DNA of 36,427 bases from a virus. The stretch lies in IMG/VR virus record IMGVR_UViG_3300009159_000011, positions 1 to 36,427 of that record. One strand, 5' to 3'. Below, piece after piece: positions 8,102-14,191 of the stretch. Position 1 is the first letter of the stretch; each line of letters starts with the position of its first letter. The notes beneath the pieces are model-generated. The model had not been told where the DNA came from, ran no database searches, and saw nothing but the letters and a program-made list of their open reading frames with translations. The position numbers and the translations under genes were made by a program.

Positions 8102-9247
8102 TTATATTTCGGGGAAGCGGTTGATTTGTTCATAATCAATAAATAGTCCTAGGTCACGCAGGTACTTTTGAGTGGTGGCTAGGTCGGAGTGTCGGCAATG
8201 TTGGCGAATTAGCTCGATGTTTTGCGTTGCTTGAAATAGGGCGATAACTCCAGTGTGCTTCCAGGAGTAGAGATCATAATTTTGGCCTTGGAGGTTTAGT
8301 TTTTTTAGAACTTCTACGTGCTTATCATAAAAATAATGCTTGCCTACTAAGACTGTGCCTGGGCCGTTGTATGAGAATACATAGTGATTTTGTGGGTAGT
8401 TTCTGAGGTTTTGTTGGTTGATTATTTTTTGTAATGGTTCTGGAATCATGATGTGCTGTGAACGGTTGTTTTTTGCGATTTTGCCATCGATAAAAATAGT
8501 TTTTTCTTTAATGTCTGAAATGAGAAGGCGTCGAAGTTCTTCACCTGGGCGAATGGCTGCGTAATAAATAAATGAAATAAAAAGCCAAAGCTGTTCGTAA
8601 TTGTTTTCAAGGCAGTATTTTTTTATGTCGTTTACAAGGTTTTTTTGATAGGCCGCATGTTTTTTTGTTACGCAGTTTAATCGCTCGATGCCTTCAAAGG
8701 GATTTGTGTCAATTATTTTTCTTTTTATAAGAAAATTAAATATGCCTGAGATGGTGGCCTTTAGGTTGTTTCGTCGGCGGTTGGAAAATCCTTTTATTGA
8801 TAGATCATCAATGTATTTTGTAGCAATAGTTTCTGTAAACTTTGCTACTGTAATTTCTAGAAGATTATTTTCTTCCAGGTAGGCAGTAAAGTTTCTGATG
8901 TCTGAGGTGTATGATTGAAATGTGCGTAGTTTAGTTGTTTTTTCTTTGTATGCTATAAAGTTTGTAATTGCTTCGATAATTGTTGATTCAGGTGATAGAT
9001 CAGTATTTTTTTTCTTTGATATTTTTTGGATGGTGTGGCCAGCCAAAAGCATTTTGTTTACATGATCAGAAAATAATTTTGCATGTGCATATCTTTCTTT
9101 GGCTGTTTTTTGGGCCAGTACGTGACGTTTGCGGATGAGCTTATTTTGAGTTTCTGAAAAAATATAATATTCGACGTACCAGGGTTTTTTTAGATCTCCG
9201 TTTGAATTAGCTACTCGACAAAGTTTATATTCTGTTTCTATTTGCAT
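8102..9247 (-). CDS. int: Tyrosine site-specific integrase
   Basis: A phage-type tyrosine recombinase of 381 aa. There is an N-terminal arm-binding region, a SAM-like core-binding domain at about 88-195 and a catalytic domain at about 200-370. Catalytic positions visible are R233 (AAIRPGEEL), a beta-hairpin Lys (K256 or K259), the YSWKHTG block at 327-333 in place of the usual HxLRHT, H350/H353 (QHCRHSDL) and the nucleophile Y362 (TTQKYL). The Y-x-x-K substitution of box II is seen in Bacteroidota integrases. The gene follows the attP region at its 5' side, as in many temperate phages, and would catalyse integration at a tRNA-like core. Confidence 0.93.
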   Translation of the reverse strand: MQIETEYKLCRVANSNGDLKKPWYVEYYIFSETQNKLIRKRHVLAQKTAKERYAHAKLFSDHVNKMLLAGHTIQKISKKKNTDLSPESTIIEAITNFIAYKEKTTKLRTFQSYTSDIRNFTAYLEENNLLEITVAKFTETIATKYIDDLSIKGFSNRRRNNLKATISGIFNFLIKRKIIDTNPFEGIERLNCVTKKHAAYQKNLVNDIKKYCLENNYEQLWLFISFIYYAAIRPGEELRRLLISDIKEKTIFIDGKIAKNNRSQHIMIPEPLQKIINQQNLRNYPQNHYVFSYNGPGTVLVGKHYFYDKHVEVLKKLNLQGQNYDLYSWKHTGVIALFQATQNIELIRQHCRHSDLATTQKYLRDLGLFIDYEQINRFPEI

Positions 9248-9290: not shown

Positions 9291-9511
9291 TTGTCATATT
9301 ATTGTCATATTTTTTTTATGACAGGGTAGAAACAAAAATAACTCGCTGATTATCAGCGAGTTATTTAAACATGTGTTGCGGGAAGCGGGCTTGCACTTTC
9401 ATTTTTTATGCTTTTATAAGATTCTGATTATTAGTTGTTTATGTTTTTTTTATGATGTCATTTTGGTATAAATGATTGTCATAATATGGGGTTTTGTCAT
9501 TTTTTTGTCAT
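9291..9511. other. Candidate attP: TTGTCAT arm sites flanking a tRNA-like core
   Basis: Seven copies of (T)TGTCAT(A) lie here: 9291, 9302 and, inverted, 9317-9323 on one side; 9455, 9476, 9494 and 9505 on the other. Between them, minus-strand bases 9400-9371 include CAAGCCCGCTTCCCGCAACA, which reads like the T-arm 3' strand, acceptor strand and discriminator of a tRNA (CCCGC, TTCCCGC, A). Tyrosine integrases bind arm-type repeats flanking a core that matches the 3' end of a host tRNA, and the integrase gene is adjacent. The arrangement is seen directly; the att assignment is inference. Confidence 0.7.
9336..9366. repeat. 31-bp perfect palindrome inside attP region
   Basis: Two 15-bp arms (9336-9350, 9352-9366) around one T, with CTGATTATCAG at the centre. 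It lies 4 nt from the tRNA-like core. It could act as a terminator-like hairpin for the host tRNA after integration, or as a protein site. The central GATTATCAG also recurs in the origin-like array at 13.8-14.1 kb. Confidence 0.85.
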
Positions 9512-9926: not shown

Positions 9927-10565
9927 TTATAATTTTTGATCAACTATACGGATGGCCTTCCAGACTGCTTTTATTTCTGTGCTTTTTATGGAAATAAAAC
10001 CTGAGTTTTGATTATCTGAGTATAAAGTAAGGCGGCCTGTTGTTTGAAGTTCGTTTTCTTTTATGCGTTTTACACAGAATTTTGAATCAAATGCTACTGC
10101 GTATATGCCACTATTTATATAAACAATATCTCCCAGAGGGATTGACTCAACTAAAATTTTTGAGCCATGATTGATGGTTGGCTCCATGGAATTTCCTTCG
10201 ATTTCAATTACTATTTGATTTGATTTTGGGTGTTCGTTGTTTGCAAAATAAACTGGGAATTTTTCTTCTAAAATGAAATTTTCTGGATTTAGTTTTTCGA
10301 TAAATGATGCAGTTGCTTTCACAGTTAAGTAGGGGATATAGTGAATATTTGTAAAAGATTCTTTGATGTCTCCGTACTGAAGTTCTTGAGGTGTGATTTT
10401 AAAATGATGTGCCATTGCTTCAATGTACTTCTTTTCAGGGTGAGAAGTGCCATTTTCATAATTGCTAATAGCTGTATTTGTTAAGCCAATTATTTCTCCA
10501 AGTTTAGCCTGAGTTAATTTTTTTTCTAGTCTAAATCGCTTTATTCTTTCGTGTAATGTTTCCAT
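9927..10565 (-). CDS. CI-like repressor: XRE HTH plus S24 (LexA-type) peptidase domain
   Basis: A 212-aa protein. Residues 5-60 form an XRE helix-turn-helix (KKLTQAKLGEIIGLTNTAIS, NYENG). Residues ~95-205 form an S24 peptidase fold with the Ser-Lys dyad visible as S126 (IEGNSMEPTI) and K166 (FCVKRI). Such repressors hold the prophage silent and inactivate themselves by RecA-stimulated self-cleavage after DNA damage. Cleavage would fall in the 80-90 linker, where AS (86-87) is possible. It is divergent from the early gene at 10682, with an operator-rich 116-nt region between them. Confidence 0.92.
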   Translation of the reverse strand: METLHERIKRFRLEKKLTQAKLGEIIGLTNTAISNYENGTSHPEKKYIEAMAHHFKITPQELQYGDIKESFTNIHYIPYLTVKATASFIEKLNPENFILEEKFPVYFANNEHPKSNQIVIEIEGNSMEPTINHGSKILVESIPLGDIVYINSGIYAVAFDSKFCVKRIKENELQTTGRLTLYSDNQNSGFISIKSTEIKAVWKAIRIVDQKL

Positions 10566-11328: not shown

Positions 11329-11754
11329 ATGGAAAATAACCTTCACTTATTTAGGCCTACTACTCCTGGGCAAATTTATGATCTGTTCTTTGCGGGCAGA
11401 ATTAAAGATTCTGATTTTGAATTTGCTTTGCCGATTATCAAAACCCAGATTGATCTTCTTAAACAACATTTGTCAGATTGTGAGCAGTGGCAAATTGAAA
11501 ATATAATTGTGGAGTTACAAAAATACGAAGCTTTATATTTTAGAATGAATGAAAGTATTAAGAATTCTGTGCAAGGCCAAAAGGCTGCTGAATGCTTGCA
11601 CCTTGCAGAAAAAAACTGGATGAATGCTGCTAGGTGTTCATCTCATGATGAGCAGTTGGTATATATAGAAAGATGTTTGGGCTATGCACGTACTGCTGGA
11701 CTTGAACCAATATCATTTATTTTAAATAAGGCTAAAGAATTAATTGCAGCATGA
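11329..11754 (+). CDS. Early protein, unknown, replication operon
   Basis: A 141-aa soluble, helix-rich protein. The region around residues 90-130 (AEKNWMNAARCSSHDEQLVYIERCLGYARTAGL) is likely a helical bundle. It overlaps the DnaB-N-like gene by 4 nt (ATGA) and so belongs to the replication operon. A role as a replication accessory or recombination protein is possible, but no motif identifies it. Confidence 0.7.
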   Translation: MENNLHLFRPTTPGQIYDLFFAGRIKDSDFEFALPIIKTQIDLLKQHLSDCEQWQIENIIVELQKYEALYFRMNESIKNSVQGQKAAECLHLAEKNWMNAARCSSHDEQLVYIERCLGYARTAGLEPISFILNKAKELIAA

Positions 11755-12386
11755 TAAACAGGGAATCTTATGAGCTTGCTGTGCTTCATGGCATGCTTAC
11801 ATATAATGACATGAGGGCAGTTGGATATTTGAAGCCATCGAATTTTATTTTTAAGACGGCTGATATAGAAAACTCTAAGATTTTTGAGGTGCTATGTAGC
11901 ACTTTAGATTTTCATGAAAGATTAAAGGCATTCAGGAAGCTGGGGCCGTGGTCGTTGATTTATTCTTGTATTTCGGTTGAAAGGGGCATAATGTATGATC
12001 ATTTAGGGGTGAATACTCCTAAATATTGCCTGCTGATTTTGGAGGAAGTTTTTGAAGCTTCTGTAAAAGAAAAATTACAACTGCTTTCTACTGATGCTTT
12101 GTATGCTCCGATTGTACAGAATGTTTTTGCAGAGATTGAATTAAGTGACATGGATTGTTTTGAAATGGCTGATAATGTTTTGGCATATTTTAGGAAAATC
12201 AATTTTGAACTTGGGGTGCTGAGTTTTGAAGAATTGATTGAAAATATTGATAAGCGAGTGAAGCAGATAAATAAAGAATGTGAGATTAATATGCTTACTA
12301 GTTTATTGGCTAGGCGTTGTGATTTTGCTGGTAAGAATGATTTGGTTGGATTAGTGGAAACTATAAAAATTGGAATGACAGGATGA
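11751..12386 (+). CDS. DnaB N-terminal-domain-like replication protein
   Basis: This 211-aa protein begins with a pattern resembling the N-terminal domain of DnaB-type helicases (ESYELAVLHGMLTYNDMRAVGYLKPSNFIF), with no ATPase domain attached. It overlaps the 463-aa DUF3987 gene by 4 nt. In Bacteroidota phages the two often stand together, so the pair may act as helicase scaffold plus ATPase, or as a helicase loader. The family assignment is from pattern recognition and is moderate. Confidence 0.55.
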   Translation: MINRESYELAVLHGMLTYNDMRAVGYLKPSNFIFKTADIENSKIFEVLCSTLDFHERLKAFRKLGPWSLIYSCISVERGIMYDHLGVNTPKYCLLILEEVFEASVKEKLQLLSTDALYAPIVQNVFAEIELSDMDCFEMADNVLAYFRKINFELGVLSFEELIENIDKRVKQINKECEINMLTSLLARRCDFAGKNDLVGLVETIKIGMTG

Positions 12387-13774
12387 GTTTTACGGATTTT
12401 TTAAAATTAAATAAAAACGAGGCTCCGACGATTACGAATGAAGCCTTGGAGTATGAGCGAAAAATTCGTGAAACTGTTGGGCTTTTTCCTTTGCATGTTT
12501 TTCATGATCGGATAAAGCCATATATAGATATTCTTGCGACAGATTATGATTTGCCGAGATCTTATATAGGAACTATGTTTTTAACTGGTTATAGTAGTGC
12601 AATTGGCACTGCTGCGGTGGCTTGTGAGGGACAGGATAATATGTCGTTTTTTCCGATTTGGTCGTGCCTTGTTGGTATTTCGTCGGCTGGTAAGTCGTTG
12701 GTGAATAATAAGGTGCTTGGGCCATTGTATGAAAAGCAGGCTGAGTATGATAAGCAGTGGGCGGAAGATGTGCAGGATATGGAGGCCAGTGCCAGGGTAA
12801 AAATGCAGATGAAGCAGCTGATTATTAGGGATGTGCATGTGCCGACAATTATGAGATATGTGATGCCTGATAATCCGAAAGGAATTATGAAGGATGCGGA
12901 TGAGATTTTGGAATGGATTAACGGGATGAATGCGACTAGTAAGAATGGTAAGGAGGGTACAGATGAGCAGTTTTATTTGAGTTCGTGGAATTGTCGGAAG
13001 TATTCGGCCATCCGTACGATGAAGGATAAGTATGTGATTGGGCGGCCTTTTATTAATGTTACTGGGGGTGTGCAGCCTAGTGTGGCTCCGAAATTATTTG
13101 CTAATAATAGGGATACTACGGGTTTTATTTTTCGGGTTTTGTTTGCTCCTCCTGAAAGGCATAGAATTGCGAGGCCTAATTTTAGGAAGGAACTGCCAAA
13201 GGAGTTGACGGATTTGCACAGAATTGTGATGCGGATGCTTGTGGAAAAGTTGCAGGTAGAAAGTGATGAGCAGGTGCCGTGGAAGTTTATGATTACGGAG
13301 AAGGCTAGTGCAATGAAAAGGAAGTGGGAGGATGAATTGGTGGCTAAGATAAATCAGATGCCTGATCTGTATGATGTTGAAGTGCATTCGGGTATTTATG
13401 GAAAGATACAGGAATATATAAACAGATTTGCGGGTATTTTGGCTGTGACTGATGTGGCTTATAATAATTATAGTAGGGGGCAATATTTTTTCTATACTGA
13501 AAAGCCTGGGGTGATTGATGAAGATATCATGGCGAGGGCTTTGGAGCTTTCAATGTATTATTATAAAAGTGCTGCTGAGACGCATAGGATAGTAAGCGTA
13601 GACTTGACTGTGCCGACGAAAGTGGTTGTTTTGGCTAATTTATTTCGCCAGGGTGCTAGTTTATCTAAAATGTCAGAGAGTTATTTTGGCGATAAGGATT
13701 TGAAGGTTAAAATGTCTAGGGAATTGAATAAACTGGTGAAGAAATACCCTAGGATATTTGGATCTAGAATATAG
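12383..13774 (+). CDS. DUF3987 primase/helicase-associated protein
   Basis: This 463-aa protein has the layout of the DUF3987 family of phage and plasmid replication proteins. A P-loop-like GISSAGKS lies at residues 98-105, an acidic DADEILEWI segment at 171-179, and conserved late motifs such as GGVQPSVAPKLFANNRDTTG and FRVLFAPPE at ~225-255. These proteins are thought to supply an ATPase or helicase activity in replication initiation. It ends the replication operon and is followed directly by the repeat-rich region at 13.8-14.1 kb, as expected if the protein acts at an adjacent origin. Confidence 0.85.
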   Translation: MSFTDFLKLNKNEAPTITNEALEYERKIRETVGLFPLHVFHDRIKPYIDILATDYDLPRSYIGTMFLTGYSSAIGTAAVACEGQDNMSFFPIWSCLVGISSAGKSLVNNKVLGPLYEKQAEYDKQWAEDVQDMEASARVKMQMKQLIIRDVHVPTIMRYVMPDNPKGIMKDADEILEWINGMNATSKNGKEGTDEQFYLSSWNCRKYSAIRTMKDKYVIGRPFINVTGGVQPSVAPKLFANNRDTTGFIFRVLFAPPERHRIARPNFRKELPKELTDLHRIVMRMLVEKLQVESDEQVPWKFMITEKASAMKRKWEDELVAKINQMPDLYDVEVHSGIYGKIQEYINRFAGILAVTDVAYNNYSRGQYFFYTEKPGVIDEDIMARALELSMYYYKSAAETHRIVSVDLTVPTKVVVLANLFRQGASLSKMSESYFGDKDLKVKMSRELNKLVKKYPRIFGSRI

Positions 13775-14191
13775 TTTTCAATGTGTATGTAAGATATGTT
13801 ACGGTTTTTTGTGTTACGGTTGATTATAAAGCACTGATTATCAAGTAGTTATAGAGTTTTAGGCCGTAACAAATCGTAACATTTGGGTATTTAACTAATT
13901 GATTATCAGGTAGTTAAGAATTGAAAACCGTAACACTTTTTGTTACGGTTGCCGTAACAAAAAGTGTTACGGTTTTGAAAAGTTAAGTTGCTTATTATCA
14001 GCGTTTTACGGAGTGCAATGTTACGATTTGTTACGGCTGTTTTTGGCTTAATATGTTGATTATCAGTGCTTTAGGTGGTATCGTAACAGAAAAAACCGTA
14101 ACATTTTTTATAAAATAGAAGCAAAAACGCAAACTGTTGATTATTAATGATTTAGATTGATTGGTGTAAAATTGGTATAGATATTATAGAT
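13775..14191. other. Gene-free 417-nt region, candidate replication origin
   Basis: No convincing ORF lies on either strand. The region is filled by two interleaved repeat families. The first is GTTACG(G/A), six copies on each strand: plus at 13798, 13813, 13942, 13966, 14020, 14030; minus at 13864, 13874, 13927, 13952, 14081, 14095. The second is four to five copies of (T/C)(T/G)ATTATCA(A/G/T). GTTACG copies come in pairs 10 or 14-15 nt apart, with one ATTATCA element between successive pairs. Arrays of iterons beside replication genes are typical of phage and plasmid origins. The origin role is inferred. Confidence 0.7.
13924..13976. repeat. 53-bp perfect palindrome in the origin-like array
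   Basis: Two 25-bp arms (13924-13948 and 13952-13976) are exact reverse complements around TTG. Each arm holds two GTTACGG units in opposite orientation. It marks the centre of the pair array and could extrude as a cruciform, be a nicking or initiator site, or be a multi-site operator. Confidence 0.95.

Follow-up and report, generated by a model that had tools for sequence, protein, structure and literature searches.

A dyad-symmetric array of short words behind a DUF3987 helicase gene as the probable replication origin of a temperate phage, with words swapped on a fixed frame among relatives

The array of twelve short words located behind the DUF3987 gene in IMG/VR virus record IMGVR_UViG_3300009159_000011 (positions 1–36,427; this whole stretch of 36,427 bases is referred to here as the window) is very probably the replication origin of this phage, as judged from its sequence and that of its relatives. 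The explanation that best covers the observations as a whole, and that we regard as probable, combines this origin with a DUF3987 protein acting as initiator-helicase, bending of the DNA by an IHF-type protein, and the departure of divergent forks. Coordinates of the individual features are given in Table 1.

A count over the window identified exactly 12 copies of GTTACG at 13798–14102, six on the plus and six on the minus strand, as a previous sequence-only reading had reported; only two copies, at 8667 and 19827, are present in the remaining 36.1 kb. Each of the 12 array copies reads TGTTACG followed by G or A (TGTTACG[G/A], 13797–14103), and an unbiased scan of all 6-mers ranked this as the densest mixed-orientation 6-mer array of the window (12 copies; the next unrelated word reached 6). 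Start-to-start spacings are 15 in the outer pairs, 10 in the middle pairs, and 12/12/12 among the four core sites; pair spacings of 10 or 14–15 nt, as initially proposed, thus stand for the middle pairs, are set at 15 for the outer pairs, and do not hold for the core. The layout had also been described as nearly symmetrical about a 53-bp palindrome; the symmetry is in fact exact, with a dyad at base 13950, as the first base of each word and the last base of its partner sum to 27900 in all six mirror pairs. In a scan of every possible centre, an imperfect palindrome of 321 bp was found to be self-complementary about 13950 at 112 of 160 positions, with a next best value of 69 among the other centres in the window (mean 40.6, SD 6.6). 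The array sits in the longest ORF-free stretch of the window (13775–14191; 417 bp), directly behind the DUF3987 gene, which bears out the earlier placement after the replication genes in a large gene-free stretch.

Table 1. Positions in the window of the proposed origin, its words and putative bending elements, and the adjoining genes
Feature	Position	Strand	Remarks
Small helical protein resembling a diverged DnaB N-terminal domain, possible primase adaptor	11751..12386	+	PF00772 in four relatives' counterparts
DUF3987 gene, proposed initiator-helicase	12383..13774	+	PF13148 E=4e-27; PHROG 'DNA helicase'; MCM-like AAA+ fold predicted
Codons of DUF3987 C-terminal helix-turn-helix, proposed word reader	13613..13762	+	three-helix block in model
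Whole dyad array, proposed replication origin	13790..14110	.	imperfect palindrome centred 13950; layout recurs in relatives
Word 1, TGTTACGG, outer left	13797..13803	+	mirrors word 12; counterpart in all relatives at about −150, or −139 in compact class
Word 2, outer left extra copy	13812..13818	+	window lineage only; missing from L327, L324, L329, L332, L331
Putative left outer bending element	13827..13851	.	palindromic TGATTATCA; IHF-type matches on + (TATCAAGTAGTTA) and −, overlapping
Word 3, left inner pair	13865..13871	−	
Word 4, left inner pair	13875..13881	−	
Putative left inner bending element	13892..13916	.	TATCAGGTAGTTA on +, AATCAATTAGTTA on −
53-bp core palindrome, words 5–8 (− + − +)	13924..13976	.	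words at 13929, 13941, 13953, 13965
Putative right inner bending element	13996..14008	+	TATCAGCGTTTTA; match of at least 8/9 in 11/12 loci
Word 9, right inner pair	14019..14025	+	
Word 10, right inner pair	14029..14035	+	
Putative right outer bending element	14049..14073	.	AATCAACATATTA on −, TATCAGTGCTTTA on +
Word 11, outer right extra copy	14082..14088	−	window lineage only
Word 12, outer right	14097..14103	−	mirrors word 1

The ATTATCA elements already noted between the word pairs mirror about the dyad as well (13835/14057 and 13900/13992). Because ATTATCA by itself is common, with 29 copies in the window, it is informative only by its placement and by the longer IHF-type consensus; the elements extend to TATCA[A/G]NNNNTTA, a form that fits the binding consensus of the DNA-bending host protein IHF, WATCARNNNNTTR. 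This consensus was matched 9/9 at several sites of the window. The right inner position presented an IHF-type match of at least 8/9 in 11 of the 12 loci, as compared to 0.38 expected from each locus's own density, while the three other positions presented matches in most loci but not all (e.g., in 9/12 for the left outer position, again at 8/9 or better). These conserved sites suggest that an IHF-type host protein is likely to bend the DNA between the word clusters. The two-motif origin design put forward by the sequence-only reading is supported in an amended form, with a first motif that varies by lineage and a second that fits the IHF consensus. A palindrome (TAACTCGCTGATTATCAGCGAGTTA) sharing the TGATTATCA core was also found at 9339–9366, upstream of the integrase gene; it may represent an attachment-site or terminator element.

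The origin peak in GC skew for which a check had been proposed was not seen; skew is positive throughout the window without a switch at the array and thus gives no origin signal. Along the whole record, skew is strongly positive (0.14 to 0.59 per 2 kb); it is also positive in two close relatives (about 0.3), and five distant DUF3987 phages have values near zero. A search at the array for an AT-rich unwinding element gave nothing consistent, the stability profile dipping only weakly at about −120 and +120.

The origin idea had been tied to the presence of the same kind of array beside DUF3987 genes in related phages, and an array with a common layout was found near DUF3987 in every such relative identified (36–98% identity, seven lineages), built from other words in most of these lineages. 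Two close IMG/VR contigs, in which DUF3987 is 98% and 95% identical, keep 12/12 words; only the base after TGTTACG alternates between G and A, while the remaining region drifts more. A motif-only scan of viral contigs (CGTAACA...TGTTACG...CGTAACA) yielded 38 stretches, as compared to 4 with one permuted word. One contig (L315, the same contig as L327) was reached from this DNA motif alone before any protein search had reached it; it carries a DUF3987 gene (44% amino acid identity) immediately upstream of its array, in which 10 GTTACG sites lie no more than 3 bp from the window's offsets. A scan with aligned DUF3987 proteins identified eleven further viral records with 37–45% identity; these include the L327 contig again and two near-identical records (L324 and L325), and the DUF3987 relatives among viral contigs comprise two close ones, ten at 36–45% identity, and one duplicate record. 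Six words occupy the one architecture, namely TGTTACG, TGGAACG (L326, L328, L333, L330, and L323), TTGTCGG (L324/L325), TGTTACTT (L329), TGTCCCGA (L332), and TTCAACA (L331). Since the repeated word varies by lineage, a search of relatives for GTTACG only would wrongly refute the origin idea.

Site centres lie at approximately −150 (+), −83 (−), −72 (−), −18 (−), −5 (+), +5 (−), +18 (+), +72 (+), +83 (+), and +150 (−) from the dyad. The core offsets of about ±18 and ±5 are found in all lineages, with some core sites degenerate in L330 and L323, and 9–10 of the 10 reference positions are matched (6–7 in L330 and L323). Random draws, 3000 per locus, matched about 0.7 positions on average and never more than 5; as the reference layout was taken from the tested loci themselves, the match score measures agreement and is not an independent prediction. 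The nearest to a blind prediction in our analysis is the array of G019/L331, which was missed by the GTTACG search and was found as a TTCAACA array by an unbiased whole-contig 6-mer scan. Two opposite-strand ORFs separate this array from DUF3987, its centre lying 930 bp downstream of the gene, and its offsets are −149, −82, −72, −18, −5, +5, +18, +72, +82, and +150. In the whole contigs of five relatives, the densest mixed-orientation 6-mer array in the unbiased scan was the one near DUF3987; array centres are found 430–930 bp downstream of this gene in L328, L333, L330, L323, and L331. A compact class, formed by the TGGAACG clade, has its inner pairs, outer sites, and bending sites about 11 bp nearer the core on both sides (139 vs. 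150, 71 vs. 83, 61 vs. 72, and 41 vs. 52). The layout is thus the common one with roughly one helical turn taken out on each side, a change that a helix-face-sensitive structure would be expected to tolerate.

A nucleotide search of phage records with the array region gave no match, and a literature search for the array word returned nothing related among the matches listed. A protein search of phage records identified two fecal records (L127 and L128) in which DUF3987 shows 22–23% identity and in which neither a GTTACG array nor any other clear array was found. L315:2455-2940 encodes a 161-aa protein consisting largely of Gly-Tyr-Gly-Asn/Asp repeats.

DUF3987 has been predicted to be a helicase since it takes the place of known helicases in primase fusions (PMC5862659). 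The window protein carries a Walker A motif, and its AlphaFold2 model (pLDDT 74, pTM 0.74) aligned with MCM at a VIA-align Z of 14.8 (rmsd 4.1 over 269 residues), all 50 of the matches listed being MCM or CMG. The best Foldseek E was only 7e-3, and we therefore call the protein MCM-like, not MCM. No MCM sequence profile was found in DUF3987, for which Pfam gives DUF3987 only, and a sequence-profile search found no relative in the PDB, solved MCMs included. The window helicase did not match DUF927 or D5/Primase_C, DUF3987 being its sole Pfam match; it would work like SaPI Rep, although its Pfam family is a different one. The protein encoded just upstream gave no Pfam match in the window copy, which is too diverged, and its best structure matches, although weak, were to DnaB; PF00772 matches its counterparts in L326, L328, L331, and L332 (E 1e-11 to 6e-7).

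In the model, the last 60 residues of DUF3987 form a three-helix HTH (helices 412–422, 427–435, and 441–454; block pLDDT mostly 82–92), and the DUF3987 protein is the likely reader of the words. Co-evolution with a changing DNA-binding domain would be expected to produce just such an exchange of words on an unchanged frame. HTH identity is 62–75% within the TGGAACG clade, while L327 and L329, whose words differ at the end, show 44% identity in the HTH and 68% in the ATPase. Co-variation of HTH and word is not clean, however, as the window and L327 share their word at an HTH identity of 29%, and of only 17% in the HTH core. Stand-alone proteins ending in a DUF3987-type HTH (E 3e-15 to 3e-10) are encoded near the array at L328:1123-1326, L330:4374-4799, and L323:3611-4060 and are possible regulators of the origin.

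DUF3987 genes are followed by arrays outside these phages as well. Among 11 DUF3987 loci examined in genomes from the phylum of Marinilabilia (Bacteroidota; L355 was left out of the count), at least six (L344, L347, L349, L350, L351, and L352) presented mixed-orientation word arrays 36–128 bp after the DUF3987 stop codon. These arrays use four further words in 7–9 copies, while shuffles gave at most 4–6, and their spacings are unlike the phage frame; no clear array was found at the distant DUF3987 genes of L345, L346, L348, L353, and L354. The common factor is DUF3987, which points to this protein as the reader. TGTTACG itself appears to be favoured beyond DUF3987 phages: arrays of this word are present in unrelated phage contigs (L030:999-1263, L060:2807-3014, L032:9354-9481, L070:7435-7652, L092:7598-7752, and L049:6822-6912), where they adjoin other replication ATPases (DUF5906/D5, AAA_25, VapE, helicase) in differing layouts. 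Their position beside other helicase families suggests that a different reader of TGTTACG is possible, and since the DUF3987 HTH profile had no convincing match in these loci, their arrays are probably read by something else. In L129, L151, L163, L177, and others (Candidatus Stahlbacteria/WOR-3 genomes), TGTTACG clusters occur on many contigs per genome, resembling a genome-wide repeat.

It is unlikely that the array instead serves in partition or copy control, as a centromere or incompatibility site to which a phage DNA-binding protein would bind. Known partition sites also have clustered short words with IHF-type sites, and the stand-alone HTH paralogs of L328, L330, and L323 could bind such a site; however, in the part of the window's genes considered, none next to the array was identified as ParA/ParB-like, and the constant companion of the arrays, including those in Bacteroidota genomes, is the helicase gene. 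An operator array, through which a phage regulator would control transcription of the flanking genes, is very unlikely: the array is intergenic and positions 9927–10565 encode a CI-like repressor with an HTH and an S24 peptidase, but TGTTACG was found neither close to this gene nor near its divergent promoter region, and no promoter-like excess was found at the array. In addition, the layout is unchanged in L331 despite its distance from DUF3987 and the ORFs in between, and neither an exact 300-bp dyad nor a second length class, shorter by about one turn, would be needed for an operator.

We reject the reading of the array as a folded single strand (i.e., a giant hairpin, cruciform, RNA structure, or terminator) in place of protein sites on duplex DNA, which is highly improbable even though the array as single-stranded DNA folds at −85.8 kcal/mol (z = −17) and the core is terminator-like on the minus strand. 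Complementarity outside the words is only 32–45% in other lineages, as compared to 59% in the window and a background of about 26%, and in L326/L333 the words are kept although a slip of 1 bp in register disrupts their pairing; an Rfam search with the array also gave no match. A packaging (pac/cos) or integration site can be all but dismissed, since the array, although att and cos sites also have array-like protein sites with IHF, sits with the helicase genes, lies some 4.5 kb from the integrase gene (8102–9247), and has no identified terminase gene as a neighbour.

The origin reading is in line with several known replication systems. Lambda ori and iteron plasmid origins combine repeated initiator sites with an IHF bend (R6K and pSC101 use IHF), a combination shared by the array; however, lambda ori, R6K, and pSC101 have mainly direct repeats and a one-sided AT-rich element and load host DnaB, while the phage array has a full dyad, no clear AT-rich element, and a helicase of its own. 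P4 alpha is a phage initiator-helicase that includes a primase and reads short words in both orientations, with crr consisting of direct repeats of about 120 bp; the P4 ori and crr system thus resembles ours in its initiator-helicase and bidirectional short words, but its word and array differ. In SV40 and papillomaviruses, two helicase rings assemble on a palindromic core of initiator sites, papillomaviruses adding a DNA-bending partner; as these are animal viruses with SF3 helicases and N-terminal DNA-binding domains, the likeness is one of design only. The arrangement also resembles SaPI Rep/ori and the SCCmec Cch/Cch2 self-loading initiator helicases of Staphylococcus, which likewise have an AAA+ helicase gene with a short-word array just downstream. 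SaPI Rep uses its C-terminal domain to read iterons that directly follow its gene, apparently as two hexamers (PMC7581432), and the DUF3987 helicase likewise has a predicted C-terminal DNA-binding HTH; Cch (DUF927) is described as MCM-like (PMC7581432 and works cited in PMC5862659). In contrast to SaPI and SCCmec, the present system has a helicase of a different family, DUF3987, is found in a temperate phage instead of an island, and presents an exact 300-bp dyad of 10–12 sites with IHF-type sites separating the clusters, words that are exchanged on a fixed frame, and a DnaB-N-like partner protein. The array would be a variant of the self-loading-helicase origin, new by its strict dyad, its IHF-type sites, and its word swapping on a fixed frame.

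Under the proposed mechanism, the DUF3987 protein would be initiator and helicase in one and would bind the words through its C-terminal HTH, while a host protein of the IHF/HU type would bend the DNA between clusters and thereby bring the outer sites and the inner pairs back onto the core. The palindromic core (− + − +) would then nucleate two DUF3987 rings facing opposite ways, which would open the DNA and depart as two divergent forks, with the DnaB-N-like protein encoded just upstream linking the rings to host primase. The dyad and the IHF-type sites together suggest a folded, two-sided complex that launches two forks; a head-to-head double ring of DUF3987 on the core is put forward tentatively. 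Equally tentative is the full picture of a modular origin, in which a fixed, helically phased, IHF-folded dyad frame would take up different words as the C-terminal HTH of its MCM-like initiator-helicase is exchanged along with them, the helicase loading as two rings head to head.

DUF3987 is a predicted helicase family without a described activity in the accessible literature, and the array supplies it with a likely target and an assayable origin. With six natural words on a single frame, exchanges of HTH domains and of words allow direct tests of protein-DNA specificity and of the rules of spacing, and could yield mutually orthogonal replicons. Origin searches with a fixed sequence will miss relatives in which the word has changed. 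If two rings do load head to head, a phage of bacteria would load them much as eukaryotic and animal-virus origins do, and would offer a small model in which to study the MCM double-hexamer problem. The array thus offers a natural test bench for the way in which a replication enzyme locates its start site.
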